In this document: positions 29,621 to 37,391 of the stretch, piece by piece
Numbering within the stretch: position 1 is the stretch's first letter
Layout: every line of letters starts with the position of its first letter
Assembly: GCF_014196515.1 (NCBI RefSeq)
Contig: NZ_JACIDV010000017.1
Coordinates: 1-64,000, forward strand
Length of the DNA stretch: 64,000 bases
Source: Rhizobium skierniewicense
Lineage (GTDB): Bacteria > Pseudomonadota > Alphaproteobacteria > Rhizobiales > Rhizobiaceae
Direction of reading: 5' to 3'
Notes under the pieces: model-generated
The model's database searches: none
What the model saw: only the letters and a program-made list of their open reading frames with translations
What the model was told of the DNA's origin: nothing
Program-made: the position numbers and the translations under genes

Positions 29621-30127
29621 TCAGTTTCGCGTGATCTGTAACCGTTACCGGGGCAGCGAATGAACGCGCCTAAGATCTCATCCTCCCAAGACTGACCGCG
29701 AAATAGACAAGAATTTAAACTCCTTGCCTCTTTTGTGAGCTGAAACTAGCCCAAACGTTAAACCTTGTCATTAATTTTTTTGCATTTTTGTTACAGTCGG
29801 CAAAAAATTCCTCTTGATGCGATTTGTCGCACATACACGGCAAAATTATTCCTCCTGAAACCGTTCAGCGGCGAAAGCTGTCTCATAAAATTGTCGCAAA
29901 ACCGCCATGAAAGAATTTTGCCGCGCATGCTCTGCACGTTTTCGGCGCGTTTTCTCGGGACTGAAACGATCAGGTCGGCCTCTGAAAAGACTCAAGCGAC
30001 AAGGGTGAAGAGGCCTAGCCCTGCGGGTTTCCTTCTGGCGCGGAAACCGCTATGTACGGCGCAAATATCCCGTTATTTCGGCGATTCCCGTGCATATGAG
30101 GGGTGTCGTCACAGAATGGAAACACCC
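29621..30127. other. Long leader region of proS
   Basis: About 500 bases without a convincing gene, AT-rich around 29710-29800. A hairpin with one bulged G (30023-30032 with 30042-30050) lies about 80 bases before the ProS start. The proS frame stays open up to 29765, but that extension is not conserved. I found no T-box-like element. Confidence 0.4.
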
Positions 30128-31450
30128 ATGCGTCTCAGCCGTTACTTTTTGCCCATCCTAAAGGAAAATCCCAAGGAAGCGGAAATCGTCTCACACCGCC
30201 TCATGCTGCGTGCGGGCATGGTCCGCCAGCAGAGCCAGGGCATTTACTCCTGGTTGCCGTTGGGCAAGCGTGTCTTGGACAAGGTCAACAAGATCGTTCG
30301 CGAAGAGCAGGATCGTTCCGGCGCCATCGAGCTGTTGATGCCGACGCTCCAATCGGCCGAGTTGTGGCAGGAGAGCGGTCGTTACGATGATTACGGCAAG
30401 GAAATGCTGCGCATCAAGGACCGTCAGGATCGCGCCATGCTTTATGGCCCGACCAATGAAGAGATGATCACCGACATCTTCCGGTCCTACGTGAAGTCCT
30501 ACAAGAGCCTGCCGCTGAACCTCTACCACATTCAGCTCAAGTTCCGTGACGAGGTTCGCCCCCGTTTCGGCACCATGCGCTCTCGCGAGTTCCTGATGAA
30601 GGATGCCTATTCCTTCGATCTGACCAAGGAGGACGCGATTCACTCCTATAACAAGATGTTCACCGCGTATCTGCGCACCTTCTCTCGCCTCGGTCTGCGT
30701 GCCATTCCCATGCGCGCCGATACCGGCCCAATCGGTGGCAACCATAGCCATGAGTTCATCATTCTGGCTGATACGGGCGAATCCGAAGTGTTCTGCCACA
30801 AGAGCTTCCTGGATCGCGGCATTCCGTCTGACGATACCGATTTCGACAATGTTGAAGGCTTGCAGGGTATCTTCAACGAGTGGACGACCGATTACGCCGC
30901 AACATCTGAAATGCATGACGCGGCTGCGTTCGACGCCATCCCGGACGGTGAACGCCTGTCTGCACGCGGCATCGAAGTCGGTCATATCTTCTATTTCGGC
31001 ACGAAATATTCCGAGCCGATGGGCGCCAAGGTTCAGGGTCCCGATGGCAAGGAACACCTTGTCCACATGGGTTCCTATGGCATTGGCCCGACGCGCCTTG
31101 TTCCCGCCATCGTTGAAGCATCGCATGATGAGAACGGAATCATCTGGCCAGAGTCGGTTGCTCCTTTCGATGTCGTCATTATCAACATGAAGGCTGGCGA
31201 CGCCGCCTGCGATGCGGCCTGTGAAAAGCTGTATTATTCGCTGACCAACGCCGGCAAGGATGTGCTCTACGACGATACGGATGACCGTGCTGGCCAGAAA
31301 TTCGCGACAGCGGATCTCATCGGTATTCCGGTGCAGGTCATTGTCGGCCCACGCGGCATCGCGGCTGGCGAGGTTGAAGTCAAGGATCGCAAGACCGGCG
31401 CACGCGAAACCGTGACCGTCGAAGCGGCAATGAACCGGGTGCTTGGCTGA
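30128..31450 (+). CDS. proS: Prolyl-tRNA synthetase (short alphaproteobacterial type)
   Basis: A class II synthetase of 440 residues charging tRNA-Pro. Motif 2 is in [25 protein letters not shown], motif 3 in [13 protein letters not shown], and the anticodon-binding domain fills the last 100 residues. E. coli ProS is about 570 residues; the missing part is the internal editing domain, as is usual in this lineage. The start MRLSRYF at 30128 fits the family; an in-frame ATG 12 bases earlier is possible. Confidence 0.97.
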
Positions 31451-31470: not shown

Positions 31471-32778
31471 ATGGCAAAAGCCGAGGCTGATAACGGTGCA
31501 CGCCCTTCCGTAACGGACAAGGCCGCCCGACCATTTTCGGCCTTCGAGCGCATGGTGGCCTGGCGCTACCTGCGTTCGCGCCGCAAGGAAGCATTCATTT
31601 CCGTCATCGCGGGGTTTTCGTTCGTCGGTATCATGCTGGGTGTGGCGACGCTCATCATTGTCATGGCGGTGATGAACGGTTTCCGCACGGAGCTGATTTC
31701 CCGCATTCTTGGCATTAACGGCCACATGATCGTGCAGCCCATCGATTCACCGTTGAAGGACTATGACGATCTCGCCAAGAAATTCTCGGCGGTTCCCGGT
31801 GTGACCATGGCGCTGCCCTTGGTCGAGGGGCAGACGCTGGCGTCCGGTCGCGGTGGTGCGGGCAGTGGGGCGCTCGTGCGCGGCGTCCGTTCCGAGGATA
31901 TCGAGAAGATCAAGGAAGTCTCCGGCAACATCAAGACTGGCGATCTGGTTGGTTATATGTCGGGGCAAGGCGTGCTGGTCGGTTCCCGGCTTGCGTCGTC
32001 GCTCGGGGTGACGGCAGGCGACCAGATTACGCTGATATCACCAGAGGGTGACGTGACCCCAATGGGCGTCAATCCGCGTGTCAAATCCTATACCATCTCG
32101 GGCGTGTTCGAGATCGGCATGTCGGAATATGACGCGTCGATGATCTATATGCCACTGTCCGAGGCGCAGCTCTATTTCAATGCCGAAGGCATCGTTCAGT
32201 CCATAGAGCTCTTCGTCTCGAACCCCGATAACGTCGATGGCATCAGGCCATTGGTGGAGACTGCAGCGGGACGGCAGATCTATATCACCGACTGGAGACA
32301 GCGAAACCAGACCTTCTTTTCCGCCCTTCAGGTTGAGCGCAATGTCATGTTCATGATCCTGACGCTCATCGTCCTGGTGGCTGCCCTCAATATCATTTCC
32401 GGCCTCATCATGCTGGTGAAGGACAAGGGCAGCGACATCGCCATTTTGCGCACCATGGGTGCCAGCGCTGGCTCCATCATGCGCATCTTCTTTATGACGG
32501 GCGCGGCCATCGGCATCGTCGGCACATTTGCGGGCGTTGGCCTTGGCGTTCTCGTCTGCCTCAATGTGGAATCGATCCGCCAGTTCTTCTCGTGGATTTC
32601 AGGCACCGTGCTGTTCGATCCGCAGCTCTATTTCCTCAGCCAGCTTCCGGCGGAAATGCAGCTGAGCGAGACGATGACGGTCGTCATCATGGCGCTGGGC
32701 CTGTCATTCCTGGCAACGATCTTTCCGGCCTGGCGGGCTTCCAAGCTCGACCCTGTCCAGGCCCTGCGTTACGAATAA
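31471..32778 (+). CDS. lolC: Lipoprotein-releasing ABC transporter permease LolC/E
   Basis: 435-residue inner-membrane permease that extracts outer-membrane lipoproteins and hands them to LolA. It has one N-terminal span (VIAGFSFVGIMLGVATLIIVMAV), a periplasmic domain of about 200 residues, and three C-terminal spans of the FtsX/MacB type. Alphaproteobacteria often have one permease acting for both LolC and LolE. It is followed by lolD after 15 bases. Confidence 0.94.
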   Translation: MAKAEADNGARPSVTDKAARPFSAFERMVAWRYLRSRRKEAFISVIAGFSFVGIMLGVATLIIVMAVMNGFRTELISRILGINGHMIVQPIDSPLKDYDDLAKKFSAVPGVTMALPLVEGQTLASGRGGAGSGALVRGVRSEDIEKIKEVSGNIKTGDLVGYMSGQGVLVGSRLASSLGVTAGDQITLISPEGDVTPMGVNPRVKSYTISGVFEIGMSEYDASMIYMPLSEAQLYFNAEGIVQSIELFVSNPDNVDGIRPLVETAAGRQIYITDWRQRNQTFFSALQVERNVMFMILTLIVLVAALNIISGLIMLVKDKGSDIAILRTMGASAGSIMRIFFMTGAAIGIVGTFAGVGLGVLVCLNVESIRQFFSWISGTVLFDPQLYFLSQLPAEMQLSETMTVVIMALGLSFLATIFPAWRASKLDPVQALRYE

Positions 32779-32793
32779 GGACCGCATCACACC

Positions 32794-33477
32794 ATGGCAC
32801 AGAAAACAGCGTTGCGGCTCAAGGGCGTGGAACGGACCTACGGGCAGGGCGAACACAGCCTGTCCATTTTGAAGAATGCCGATCTGGAGCTGAAAAGTGG
32901 CGAGATTGTCGCGCTTGTCGCGCCGTCCGGCACCGGCAAGTCCACCCTGCTGCATCTGGCAGGGCTCTTGGAACATCCGGATGCTGGCGAAGTCTTCGTC
33001 AACGGAAGGTCCTGCGGCGATCTCACCGACGAACAGCGCACCCTGATCCGTCGCAGCGATATCGGCTTCGTCTACCAGTTCCACCATTTGCTGCCGGAAT
33101 TCACCGCGCTCGAGAACATCATGATGCCGCAGCTCATTTCGGGTCTGCCGCATTCCGAGGCCAAGGAACGCGCCAGCGCGCTTCTCGACTACATGCGCAT
33201 CGGCCACCGCGGCGACCACCGCCCCTCCGAATTGTCCGGCGGAGAGCAGCAACGCGTCGCCATCGCCCGCGCGGTCGCCAACGCGCCGCTTCTGCTTCTG
33301 GCAGACGAGCCGACCGGTAACCTCGATCCTGAAACGGCGTCTTACGTGTTCGGTGCACTGGAAGCACTGGTGCGCCAGTCGGGTCTGGCCGCCCTGATCG
33401 CGACCCACAACCACGAGCTCGCAGGTCGCATGGACCGCCGTGTGACACTGAACGAAGGCAAGATCGTCGAGTTCTGA
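32794..33477 (+). CDS. lolD: Lipoprotein-releasing system ATPase LolD
   Basis: 227-residue ABC ATPase partner of LolC. Walker [10 protein letters not shown] is at 43-51, Q-loop in [18 protein letters not shown], signature LSGGEQQR and Walker [10 protein letters not shown]. It forms an operon with lolC and ends with a strong terminator. Confidence 0.96.
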
Positions 33478-33521
33478 TCGCCGCCGCTACCTGGCAGCTT
33501 AGGTTCCCATCCATTTGGCCA

Positions 33522-33554
33522 ACCCTGCGCAACACTCTGTTGCGCAGGGTTTTT
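33522..33554 (+). terminator. Terminator of lolCD
   Basis: A perfect 11-bp stem (33522-33532 with 33540-33550), loop CACTCTG, and five T. It isolates the next small gene from lolCD transcription. Confidence 0.95.
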
Positions 33555-33663
33555 CGTTTTGGAGTCAACGGTTTGGAACGAATCAGGTGCGGAACCACCA
33601 CGAGTCCCCCTGCGTTGACAAGACAAAGCATGAAAATAAGCAGTTGACAGTGAAACGAAATGA

Positions 33664-33678
33664 GAACAAAGTTAGAAC
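33664..33678 (+). promoter_or_regulatory. LexA (SOS) box
   Basis: GAAC at 33664-33667 and GAAC at 33675-33678, seven bases apart, match exactly the direct-repeat operator GAAC-N7-GAAC (GTTC-N7-GTTC on the other strand) that LexA binds in alphaproteobacteria. TTGACA at 33644-33649 supplies a -35, so the box covers the region where the -10 and start site should lie. It is 21 bases before the 28-codon gene. Confidence 0.75.
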
Positions 33679-33699
33679 ATAAAGAGTATGGAGAGACAA

Positions 33700-33786
33700 A
33701 TGACCGACATCATCCGTGACATCGCCGCCTTCGCTTCCATCGCCGTGTTCGTTGCCAGCTTCTCGGTGATCCTCACTTCCATGTGA
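33700..33786 (+). CDS. 28-residue membrane peptide under LexA control, SidA-like
   Basis: ATG 33700 follows GGAGAG and opens a 28-codon frame ending TGA 33786. The peptide has a short charged start (MTDIIRD) and one hydrophobic helix filling the rest (AAFASIAVFVASFSVILTS). The size, single span and SOS box match SidA of Caulobacter, a 29-residue inner-membrane inhibitor of division that acts on FtsW/FtsN. Sequence homology to SidA was not tested. An inhibitor made when DNA is damaged is therefore an inference from architecture. dnaE follows 95 bases later. Confidence 0.7.
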   Translation: MTDIIRDIAAFASIAVFVASFSVILTSM

Positions 33787-33881
33787 TGTCCCAACGTCGT
33801 TTCCAACGGAAATGGCATGTAAAGGTGAACTGAGGCAGTGGACTTTGCCTCTGGAAAATCCGAAAATCCCCCGGACTCAGA

Positions 33882-36800
33882 ATGGCGGGATTGTATAAGA
33901 TGGGCGAGATTTCAGCAAACGGCAGCATGGCCGAAAAAACCCTGAAGACGCCCGGCTTCGTTCACCTTCGGGTGCACTCTGCCTATTCCCTGCTCGAGGG
34001 CGCGTTGCCCTTGAAGAAGATCATGGCCAAGGCCTTGGCCGATAGCCAGCCTGCCATCGCCATTACCGACACGAATAATCTTTTCATCGCGCTCGAGTTT
34101 TCCGAAAAAGCGCGTGACGAGGGCTTGCAGCCGATCATCGGCTGCCAGATGTCCATCGATATGCAGGATGCCTCCGATGACAAGCGCGGGCAGAACAATC
34201 TTGCAAAACTTCCCTCCATCGTCGTCCTCGCCGCAGATGCGCGAGGCTACGAGCGTCTCGTGGACCTCATCAGCCGCGCCTATCTCGATGGCGAAACGGC
34301 AGGTTCCGTTTGCATCACCAGGGCGTGGCTGGAGGAGGCCGACAATTCCGGTCTCATCGTTCTGACGGGTGCGTCCGGCGGGCCCATCGATATGTCCTTG
34401 AGGGAGGGGCATGTTTCCCAGGCGACGAAACGCCTCTTGGCTTTGAAAAGCCTGTTTGGCGACCGTCTCTATATCGAGTTGCAGCGTCAGGGCAATTTTG
34501 ATCGCACGCATGAGCGCCGCATGATGGCGCTGGCCTATGAGCACGACCTGCCACTGGTCGCCACCAACGAAGCATTTTTTCCGTCACGTTCCGATTATGA
34601 TGCCCATGATGCACTGATGGCCGTCGCCCATAACGCCATCGTTTCCGACGACAGCCGCTTTCGTCTGACACCTGATCATTATCTCAAGAGCCGAGACGAG
34701 ATGATGGCGTTGTTTGCCGATATTCCAGAAGCTCTGGAGAATACCGTCGAGATCGCGCAACGCTGTTCCTATGTGCTCAAGAAACGTGGGCCGATCCTGC
34801 CGCGTTTTACCGGTGCAAGCGAAGATCCCGAAGAGGCTGATCGCGCCGAAGGTGCCGAACTGCGACGTCAGGCCATTGAAGGTCTGGACCAGCGGTTGGC
34901 CGCGCTTGGCATGGCGCCGGGTTACACCGAGCAGGAGTACCGCGACCGACTGGACTTCGAACTGGGCGTCATCGAGCGCATGAAGTTTCCCGGCTACTTT
35001 CTCATCGTTGCCGACTTCATCAAATGGGCCAAGAACCAGGATATTCCGGTCGGTCCCGGTCGTGGTTCCGGTGCGGGCTCGCTGGTGGCCTATGCGCTGA
35101 CCATCACCGATGTCGATCCCCTTCGCTTCTCGCTGCTGTTCGAACGCTTCCTCAATCCTGAACGCGTATCGATGCCCGACTTCGATATCGACTTCTGTCA
35201 GGATCGCCGTGAAGAGGTGATCCGCTATGTTCAGAAAAAGTATGGACGCGAGCAGGTGGCGCAGATCATCACCTTCGGTTCGCTGCAAGCGCGTGCCGCG
35301 TTGCGCGACGTTGGTCGCGTTCTGGAGATGCCATACGGTCAGGTAGACCGCATCTGCAAACTGGTGCCGAACAATCCGGCCAACCCGACAACACTTTCCA
35401 AGGCCATCGAGGAGGAGCCGCGCTTTCAGGAAGAGGCAGACAAGGAGCCGGTCGTTGCCCGTCTTCTGGATATCGCCCAGAAAATCGAAGGTCTTTACCG
35501 CCACGCGTCCACCCACGCCGCCGGTATCGTCATTGGCGACAGGCCGCTGTCCAAGCTCGTGCCGATGTATCGCGATCCGCGCTCGGATATGCCCGTCACG
35601 CAGTTCAACATGAAGTGGGTGGAAAGCGCCGGTCTGGTCAAATTCGACTTTCTCGGTTTGAAAACGCTGACCGTTCTCAAGGTTGCCGTGGACTTCGCTG
35701 CCAGACGCGGTTCGACCGTCGATCTGGCGGCGATTCCGCTGGAGGACGCGAAAACCTACGAGATGCTGTCGCGCGGTGAAACCATCGGCGTGTTCCAGGT
35801 GGAAAGTGCCGGCATGCGCAAGGCGCTGATCGGGATGCGGCCCGACTGCATCGAGGACATCATCGCGCTGGTCGCGCTCTATCGCCCGGGCCCGATGGAA
35901 AATATTCCGGTCTACAATGCCCGCAAGCATGGCGAAGAAGAGATCGAATCGATCCATCCAACCATCGACAATCTGCTGAAAGAGACGCAGGGCGTGATCG
36001 TCTATCAGGAGCAGGTGATGCAGATCGCCCAGGTTCTGTCCGGCTACTCGCTGGGCGAAGCCGATCTTCTGCGCCGCGCCATGGGTAAGAAGATCAAGGA
36101 GGAGATGGATCAGCAGCGCGAGCGTTTCGTCGAAGGCGCGATGCGCAACGATGTCTCGAGGGCGCAGTCCAACACCATCTTCGACCTCCTGGCCAAGTTT
36201 GCGAATTACGGCTTCAACAAATCCCACGCCGCCGCCTACGCCATCGTCTCTTATCAGACAGCCTATATGAAGGCGCATTTTCCCGTGGAGTTCTTGGCTG
36301 CCTCCATGACGCTGGATATGGCCAACACCGAAAAATTGAACGATTTCCGCCAGGACGCGGGCCGCATGGGGATCGAAATCGTCGCGCCGTCGGTCCAGAC
36401 GTCTCACCGCCGGTTTGAGCCGGGTGAAAACCGCATCTACTATTCGCTGGCGGCGCTGAAGGGCGTGGGTGAGGGTGCGGTCGATCACATCGTCGACGTA
36501 CGCGGCGAAAAGCCCTTCAGCAGCCTTGAGGATTTCTGCCTGCGGATCGACCCGAAACAGGTGAACCGTCGCGTGCTGGAAAGCCTGATCAACGCCGGTG
36601 CCTTCGATTGCTTCGGCAGAGATCGCGCCGAACTCCTGGGCGGGCTCGACCGCATCATCGGTTATTCGCAGCGCGCGCAGGAAAGCCGCGTCACCGGCCA
36701 GCATGATATGTTCGGCTCAGGTGCCGCTACCGGTCCCGAAAAACTCATTCTGCCTGCCTTTCAGCCTTGGCTCGCATCGGAAAAGCTTCTGCGCGAATAT

Positions 36801-37391
36801 CAGGTGCTTGGATTCTATCTCACAGCCCACCCGCTCGATACCTACCGCGCCATCCTCGACAAGCTTCGTGTCCAGAACATTTCCGATTTCACGGCAGCAG
36901 TGAAACAGGGCGCGACGGCTGGGCGTCTGGCCGGCACCGTCACCGGCAAGCAGGAGCGAAAGACCAGAACCGGCAACAAGATGGGTATCGTCACCTTCTC
37001 GGATGCGTCGGGCCAATATGAGGCGGTGCTGTTTTCCGAAGGGCTGGCCCAGTACCGCGAATTGCTGGAGGTTGGAAAATCACTTGTGATTACAGTGCAG
37101 GCGGAAGAACGTCCCGAAGGCATCGGCCTTCGCATCCAGACGGCACAGTCTCTTGAAGAAAAATCCGTCCAGATGCAACGGGCGCTTCGCGTTTACGTGC
37201 GCGATTCCGGGCCTCTGAAAAGCCTCGTTCACCACCTCAACAGAGGCGATGGATCTGTCTATTTCATCGTCATCAAGGACGATGGCCAACGCGAAATCGA
37301 AGTGGAACTCCCCGGCAAGTATCGCATTTCGCCGGAGATCGGGGCGGCATTCAGATCCGCAAATGGCGTCATCGACGTTGAGTTGATCTGA
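33882..37391 (+). CDS. dnaE: DNA polymerase III alpha subunit (replicative)
   Basis: About 1,150-1,169 residues. The PHP domain starts with FVHLRVHSAYSLLEGALPL, the palm carries GPGRGSGAGSLVAY and the catalytic aspartates of MPDFDIDF near residue 430, and a tandem HhH (NAGAFDCFG) and OB domain (GTVTGKQERKTRTGNKMGIVTFSD) follow. Length and content fit the replicative DnaE1; the SOS-induced DnaE2 would sit beside imuAB, absent here. The start is uncertain: ATG 33882, 33900 or 33927 are in frame, none with an ideal binding site. Confidence 0.95.
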   Translation: MAGLYKMGEISANGSMAEKTLKTPGFVHLRVHSAYSLLEGALPLKKIMAKALADSQPAIAITDTNNLFIALEFSEKARDEGLQPIIGCQMSIDMQDASDDKRGQNNLAKLPSIVVLAADARGYERLVDLISRAYLDGETAGSVCITRAWLEEADNSGLIVLTGASGGPIDMSLREGHVSQATKRLLALKSLFGDRLYIELQRQGNFDRTHERRMMALAYEHDLPLVATNEAFFPSRSDYDAHDALMAVAHNAIVSDDSRFRLTPDHYLKSRDEMMALFADIPEALENTVEIAQRCSYVLKKRGPILPRFTGASEDPEEADRAEGAELRRQAIEGLDQRLAALGMAPGYTEQEYRDRLDFELGVIERMKFPGYFLIVADFIKWAKNQDIPVGPGRGSGAGSLVAYALTITDVDPLRFSLLFERFLNPERVSMPDFDIDFCQDRREEVIRYVQKKYGREQVAQIITFGSLQARAALRDVGRVLEMPYGQVDRICKLVPNNPANPTTLSKAIEEEPRFQEEADKEPVVARLLDIAQKIEGLYRHASTHAAGIVIGDRPLSKLVPMYRDPRSDMPVTQFNMKWVESAGLVKFDFLGLKTLTVLKVAVDFAARRGSTVDLAAIPLEDAKTYEMLSRGETIGVFQVESAGMRKALIGMRPDCIEDIIALVALYRPGPMENIPVYNARKHGEEEIESIHPTIDNLLKETQGVIVYQEQVMQIAQVLSGYSLGEADLLRRAMGKKIKEEMDQQRERFVEGAMRNDVSRAQSNTIFDLLAKFANYGFNKSHAAAYAIVSYQTAYMKAHFPVEFLAASMTLDMANTEKLNDFRQDAGRMGIEIVAPSVQTSHRRFEPGENRIYYSLAALKGVGEGAVDHIVDVRGEKPFSSLEDFCLRIDPKQVNRRVLESLINAGAFDCFGRDRAELLGGLDRIIGYSQRAQESRVTGQHDMFGSGAATGPEKLILPAFQPWLASEKLLREYQVLGFYLTAHPLDTYRAILDKLRVQNISDFTAAVKQGATAGRLAGTVTGKQERKTRTGNKMGIVTFSDASGQYEAVLFSEGLAQYRELLEVGKSLVITVQAEERPEGIGLRIQTAQSLEEKSVQMQRALRVYVRDSGPLKSLVHHLNRGDGSVYFIVIKDDGQREIEVELPGKYRISPEIGAAFRSANGVIDVELI

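Follow-up and report, generated by a model that had tools for sequence, protein, structure and literature searches.

Genetic organization of the locus

The window, that is, the whole stretch of 64,000 nucleotides that was analysed, carries a very small gene between lolD and dnaE, preceded by promoter elements of its own. The genes of this neighbourhood all lie on the plus strand, in the order proS-lolC-lolD-peptide-dnaE, and the features of the region are as follows:

29765..31450, + strand, proS-like ORF (neighbour), whose true start is probably downstream of 29765
31471..32778, + strand, lolC-type permease (neighbour)
32794..33477, + strand, lolD (neighbour)
33521..33551, + strand, intrinsic terminator 3' of lolD, 14 pairs, fold z-score -5.5
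33644..33649, + strand, -35 element TTGACA; TTGA[CAT] in 45 of 45 distinct Rhizobiaceae promoters
33653..33667, + strand, degenerate upstream box AAAC-N7-GAAC, with AAAC 11 bp ahead of the first GAAC
33664..33678, + strand, LexA box GAAC-N7-GAAC, GAACAAAGTTAGAAC, 21 nt before the ATG at 33700; exact box kept in 42 of 45 distinct Rhizobiaceae promoters, at most 70 bp from the ATG
33667..33672, + strand, -10-like hexamer CAAAGT, assigned by its position 17 nt from the -35 element and overlapping the LexA box
33690..33693, + strand, Shine-Dalgarno sequence GGAG
33700..33786, + strand, 28-codon gene MTDIIRDIAAFASIAVFVASFSVILTSM, single hydrophobic helix, SidA homologue with a conserved frame and a profile link to SidA
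33882..37391, + strand, dnaE, replicative DNA polymerase III alpha (neighbour); 33882 or 33900 are possible starts

The small gene runs from the ATG at 33700 to the TGA at 33784-33786 and encodes a peptide of 28 residues with a net charge of -1 (D, E, R and K counted), which is hydrophobic from residue 8 and has a single helix predicted by hydropathy only. A 32-codon alternative ORF from the ATG at 33688 is also present; the start at 33700 is preferred because the GGAG lies inside the longer version and because the homology described below starts at 33700. A first-pass annotation of this DNA had proposed a strong terminator isolating the peptide gene from lolCD, a perfect LexA box 21 bases ahead of it and a 28-codon gene with a ribosome-binding site and one hydrophobic helix, and each of these elements was confirmed. 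The proS-like ORF was named solely from its translation, which resembles the proS product of genome family f66 (see below).

No match to Pfam, NCBIfam or PHROG was obtained for the small ORF and no Rfam family was matched in 33400-34000. The fold z-score of the ORF RNA is +0.6. A mobile origin of the locus was considered and rejected, with neither a plasmid nor a PHROG match. Judged by dnaE, the nearest named relatives are Agrobacterium species, and the window belongs to an Agrobacterium-type genome.

The LexA box and the promoter

A single LexA box is not evidence by itself, since chance accounts for such boxes: shuffled sequences give an expectation of 2.3 for the window, which has one, and the genome holds 153 against 113 for a reversed control pattern. 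The significance of the box at 33664-33678 comes instead from its conservation across relatives. The other elements of the promoter are kept as well, with a Shine-Dalgarno-like sequence in all 45 distinct Rhizobiaceae promoters and a hexamer 17 nt past the -35 element that ends 26-29 nt 5' of the ATG throughout this set. In the window this hexamer, CAAAGT, fits TATAAT at only three of six positions, which is why the promoter went unreported by an automatic scan. As the LexA box overlaps the hexamer, bound LexA would cover the core promoter. From the conserved exact box, a LexA-controlled promoter such as that of sidA is predicted for the window gene. The genome itself carries lexA, which has a box of its own situated about 60 bp 5' of the start that was matched.

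Two exact LexA boxes that overlap in tandem, formed by three GAAC half-sites 11 bp apart, occur in 14 of the 45 distinct promoters (loci L040, L038, L036, L035, L034 and L046 among them), at about -47 and -36 relative to the ATG. In Caulobacter, by contrast, a single box is reported for about 97% of SOS promoters (PMC12700426), and the tandem arrangement may provide unusually tight repression of a harmful peptide.

Conservation and selection in Rhizobiaceae

The family was searched with a query of 32 amino acids, consisting of the 28-residue peptide and four further residues, and matches at E<=1 were found in 115 of 199 genomes. When 122 family matches were crossed with dnaE positions, counting a gap of up to 2500 bp as upstream, dnaE was located for 51 of the 57 matches at E<=1e-3 (the remaining six have no listed dnaE place), and all 51 lie just upstream of it on the same strand. 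Of the weaker matches, 16 are upstream of dnaE, 7 elsewhere and 6 unplaced at E 1e-3 to 0.05, and 6 upstream, 23 elsewhere and 7 unplaced at E 0.05 to 1. The distance between peptide and dnaE spans 135 to 1794 bp. Inspection of 20 of the 30 matches located elsewhere identified 15 as 28-residue ORFs behind an exact LexA box and 5 that are not; lolD is found upstream of the match in 10 of these 20 stretches, and none of them contains dnaE. For ten genomes both places are known: dnaE lacks an exact box in the preceding 700 bp in all ten, and nine have the boxed peptide elsewhere.

All 49 aligned Rhizobiaceae copies, which represent 45 distinct sequences, have 28 codons (84 nt). Mean pN/pS is 0.32 over 990 pairs, uncorrected for multiple hits, and a comparison of the window with eleven close relatives gives totals of 21, 1 and 80 differences at the first, second and third codon positions. 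The frame is thus real, kept throughout the family and under purifying selection on its amino-acid sequence, and the upstream box is kept with it. Of the three outcomes that the first-pass annotation had named as refuting its reading, two, a frame not conserved beyond close relatives and a near-neutral synonymous-to-nonsynonymous ratio, were not seen. Helical periodicity of the conservation is not significant (p 0.06). The Rhizobiaceae set of 51 upstream regions used below includes some genomes twice and a few loci from organisms named as non-Rhizobiaceae.

Relationship to SidA

The reference for SidA was genome family f66. All 21 f66 peptides that were aligned, 29-31 residues long, are matched by the NCBIfam model NF033228 (div_inhib_SidA, equivalog "cell division inhibitor SidA"), the best with an E-value of 6.4e-21. 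In one f66 genome (L355) the gene order is proS, lolC, lolD, an inosine-uridine nucleoside hydrolase on the opposite strand, the peptide and dnaE. This order fits the Caulobacter records, in which sidA is CCNA_02004 (PMC11034885), CCNA_02005 is an inosine-uridine preferring nucleoside hydrolase (PMC3667746) and dnaE is CC1926 (PMC1839093); no mention of CC1927 was found in the literature searched. Because of the matches to the SidA model and the gene order, f66 was taken to be Caulobacteraceae. The 15-base box described in PMC12700426 is present in 70 of 199 f66 genomes, which is suggestive only as a Caulobacter marker. In five f66 loci (L335, L339, L340, L343 and L345) an in-frame upstream start would extend the peptide to 50-63 residues across the region of the LexA box, and gene callers could choose the wrong start in such genomes.

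The window gene shares this setting, as it adjoins dnaE in a proS-lolC-lolD neighbourhood, and its product resembles SidA in length (28 against about 29 residues), in its one membrane helix, by hydropathy only, and in the LexA box lying over the promoter. The window family and the f66 SidA peptides can be aligned without gaps, with R6, D/E7, A10, F/L11, S13, I/V14, F17 and V18 in common. They differ at other positions: the window family has A9 and A-S-F-S at 19-22, whereas f66 SidA has L9 and W-M-M-C, and the FVWMM stretch is absent from the window peptide.

In profile comparisons the window family and SidA scored 71% (E 3.6e-5). A set of 33 intermediates scored 96% with the window family (E 2.5e-9) and 95% with SidA (E 6.8e-8). 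When the membrane columns were permuted, the real score was reached in 1 of 150 controls for the direct comparison, which is therefore modest, and in 0 of 150 for each comparison with the intermediates; when all columns after the first were permuted it was never reached. The intermediates were hand-picked from boxed ORFs upstream of dnaE, outside f66 and outside the dnaE-linked matches of the window family (one, from L375, is from an f1 genome), and they omit more divergent boxed peptides (families f44, f123, f125, f84, f60, f7, f207 and others). As box, position and visible motif all entered into this selection, the comparisons with them favour similarity.

A less biased view is given by profile searches of all 3151 upstream ORFs of 20-70 residues. 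A profile built only from f66 SidA and run against the 2726 ORFs outside its own group (dnaE-upstream, both strands) found 44 at E<=1, 40 of them with an exact box. These comprise 35 Rhizobiaceae peptides, two misplaced f66 loci (L309 and L310, counted as "other" in this search) and seven small hydrophobic dnaE-upstream ORFs of other families. The profile thereby reaches 35 of 52 Rhizobiaceae ORFs, or 18 of 34 distinct peptides, the other 17 ORFs lying above E 1; the window ORF, present under three locus ids, was found at E 0.069, against 0.23 for the best reversed ORF. The window-family profile found 47 ORFs at E<=1 among 2258, with a box in 38 cases, the best reversed ORF being at 0.63.

The curated model behaves differently. 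At its cut-off of 35 bits NF033228 leaves out the window peptide, which gives no match at E<=1; 31 Rhizobiaceae peptides all go unmatched even at E<=10, and of the 33 intermediates one is matched weakly, with 13.2 bits. The profile comparisons support a wider homology to SidA, beyond shared composition, and since the curated model does not match it, the window peptide is best described as a diverged SidA homologue outside the curated equivalog. The SidA-like reading in the first-pass annotation had been drawn from architecture only; gene neighbourhood and profile comparison now support it, and the label "SidA equivalog" is not justified.

Occurrence before dnaE in other alphaproteobacteria

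Since the window-family profile gave no clear match in the class sample outside its own genome (best E 0.005), the locus was traced through dnaE instead. This gene was placed in 371 of the 385 genomes of the class sample and in 109 of the 111 of the order sample, and 208 of the regions upstream of it were examined. A LexA box followed by a hydrophobic ORF of 24-50 residues, with the single helix defined by a hydropathy cut-off of our own setting, precedes dnaE in 46 of 51 regions of the Rhizobiaceae set, 31 of 68 of the order, 21 of 139 of the class and 31 of 50 of f66, whereas five dinucleotide-shuffled versions of every set gave a mean of 0. Any LexA box before dnaE was counted in 33 of 139 class regions against 2.8 in shuffles, and in 35 of 68 order regions against 1.4. 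A family profile, trained partly on sequences later found with it, detects the peptide in all 50 f66 regions, in 13 of the 139 from the class and in 37 of the 68 from the order, plus one on the opposite strand, reversed ORFs giving 0. With a 31-member profile, some members of which were trimmed, 51 of the 111 genomes of the order gave matches at E<=0.1. The peptide family is widespread at the dnaE locus and patchy, with 118 of the 139 class regions showing no box-plus-helix ORF.

The family genomes with no peptide match before dnaE were sampled separately (40 of the 71 f1 genomes of this kind for which dnaE is listed): one combines an exact box with a helix ORF, and the profile finds the peptide in two. 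Three small family genomes, L387 (1.5 Mb), L396 (1.9 Mb) and L411 (2.0 Mb), have no exact box upstream of dnaE, and we would guess that the box was lost through genome reduction. Second, unboxed peptide-like matches occur in three genomes of one genus (loci L419, L420 and L421, genomes G016, G119 and G189), which also have a match upstream of dnaE.

Proposed role of the peptide

Caulobacter SidA is described as an inner-membrane protein of 29 residues with FtsW and FtsN as interaction partners, and it is proposed to hold FtsW/I/N inactive; its overproduction is lethal through a block of division, and suppressors map to ftsW and ftsI (PMC4211646). Loss of lexA is reported to cause filamentation through sidA (PMC12700426), and low-confidence complex predictions put SidA on TM7 of FtsW (PMC13396833).

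We consider it likely that the window gene is a diverged homologue of sidA, encoding a LexA-repressed, SOS-induced membrane peptide that holds FtsW/FtsI/FtsN inactive, and by its homology and promoter design it should act in its own host as SidA does. In undamaged cells LexA would sit on the box over the spacer and the -10 region and keep the gene off; upon DNA damage, RecA-stimulated cleavage of LexA would free the promoter. The mRNA, beginning some 20 nt ahead of the start codon, would then be translated into the 28-residue peptide, which would insert into the inner membrane, probably with its N-terminus inside and the conserved R6-D7 at the edge of the membrane. Through the conserved A10, S13, F17 and neighbouring residues the helix may pack against FtsW, the synthase of the septal cell wall, and/or against partners of FtsW, so that FtsW/FtsI/FtsN would be kept inactive and septation delayed until repair.

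Three other explanations were weighed. The peptide could be SOS-induced and derived from SidA but act in Rhizobiaceae on a different membrane complex, for instance machinery for polar growth or for the envelope. Cells of the Agrobacterium type grow at the pole, and the helix is unlike that of SidA in its C-terminal half, which would suit such a change of partner; the N-terminal half and F17 are nevertheless common to the window family and SidA and no positive evidence was found for another target, so that we regard this as unlikely.

The gene could also encode a membrane toxin like TisB or DinQ, induced in the SOS response, that would depolarise the inner membrane and make persister cells, a reading that is rather improbable. 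Type I toxins have a long structured leader and an antisense RNA; the 26-29 nt between the inferred -10 hexamer and the ATG would leave little room for such a leader, and neither the Rfam search of 33400-34000 nor the fold z-score of the ORF RNA gave a sign of these features. Pore-forming peptides of this kind are cationic, whereas the window peptide has a net charge of -1, and its sequence ties it to SidA instead. Size, a single hydrophobic helix and LexA control do fit such a toxin, and the E. coli toxin DinQ is described as an SOS peptide with one transmembrane segment (PMC3567139).

It is improbable, too, that the ORF is an upstream ORF or leader regulating dnaE1, through which the LexA box would tune DNA polymerase III in the SOS response: the constant place of the strong, placed Rhizobiaceae matches upstream of dnaE, the lack of an intrinsic terminator on the plus strand between ORF and dnaE in our scan, which makes read-through into dnaE possible, and the suggestion of a uORF role for the translated sORF25 in the 5'-UTR of dnaE1 in S. 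meliloti (PMC10117765) agree with it, but selection targets the amino-acid sequence, the gap to dnaE is variable and in the nine genomes where peptide and dnaE are separated the box stays with the peptide, which argues that LexA control belongs to the peptide.

Comparison with known systems and significance

Among other small division inhibitors, DidA of Caulobacter resembles the window peptide, by description only, in being a small single-helix inhibitor acting on FtsW/I/N, and differs in its length of 71 amino acids, its SOS-independence and its binding to FtsN (PMC4211646). YneA, SosA and ChiZ are likewise SOS or damage-induced membrane division inhibitors, YneA interacting with FtsW and the other two being predicted to do so (PMC13396833); they come from other phyla and are likened to the window peptide by description only. 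A further counterpart is sORF25 of S. meliloti, reported as a translated, previously unannotated sORF in the dnaE1 5'-UTR (PMC10117765). Judged by its position only, it likely belongs to the window peptide family, and it lends indirect support to the translation of genes of the window type. In the literature searched, SidA appears as a Caulobacter protein and no Rhizobiales relative is named, although the SidA discovery paper was outside this search and may comment on relatives; four fragments of the peptide were also searched for, and none of the papers searched contains them.

SidA itself is already known. New with respect to the literature searched is that it has kin well beyond the curated family, that the place between lolCD and dnaE is common to them and that the curated model misses them. 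Somewhat better than an even chance may be given to a broader proposal, in which membrane helices of about 26-47 residues make up an old family of SOS checkpoint peptides that is ancestral to much of the Alphaproteobacteria and has its fixed place between lolCD and dnaE, SidA being its local form and no Caulobacter speciality. Such a helix would keep the code [RQK]-[DE]-x-x-A-x-x-[SA]-x-x-x-F, its outer half would vary by lineage, perhaps in step with the divisome, and in the pole-growing Rhizobiaceae the family would supply the so far missing SOS division inhibitor. If the family works like SidA, it offers, for many alphaproteobacteria, a candidate for the SOS checkpoint that can be deleted, a naturally diverged set of helices with which to map how a tiny peptide stops FtsW, and a likely function for the ribosome-profiled sORF in the S. 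meliloti dnaE1 5'-UTR. The case also illustrates that a curated model can overlook short genes that are revealed by locus and promoter.

Besides dnaE1, the genome carries two more DnaE-type polymerases (C8:99747-102824 and C1:269001-272075), both of which score under the replicative cut-off, as error-prone DnaE2 would. About 2.2 kb upstream of the one at C1:269001-272075 lies GAACAAAAAGTGAAC, as expected for a candidate imuA-imuB-dnaE2 operon.
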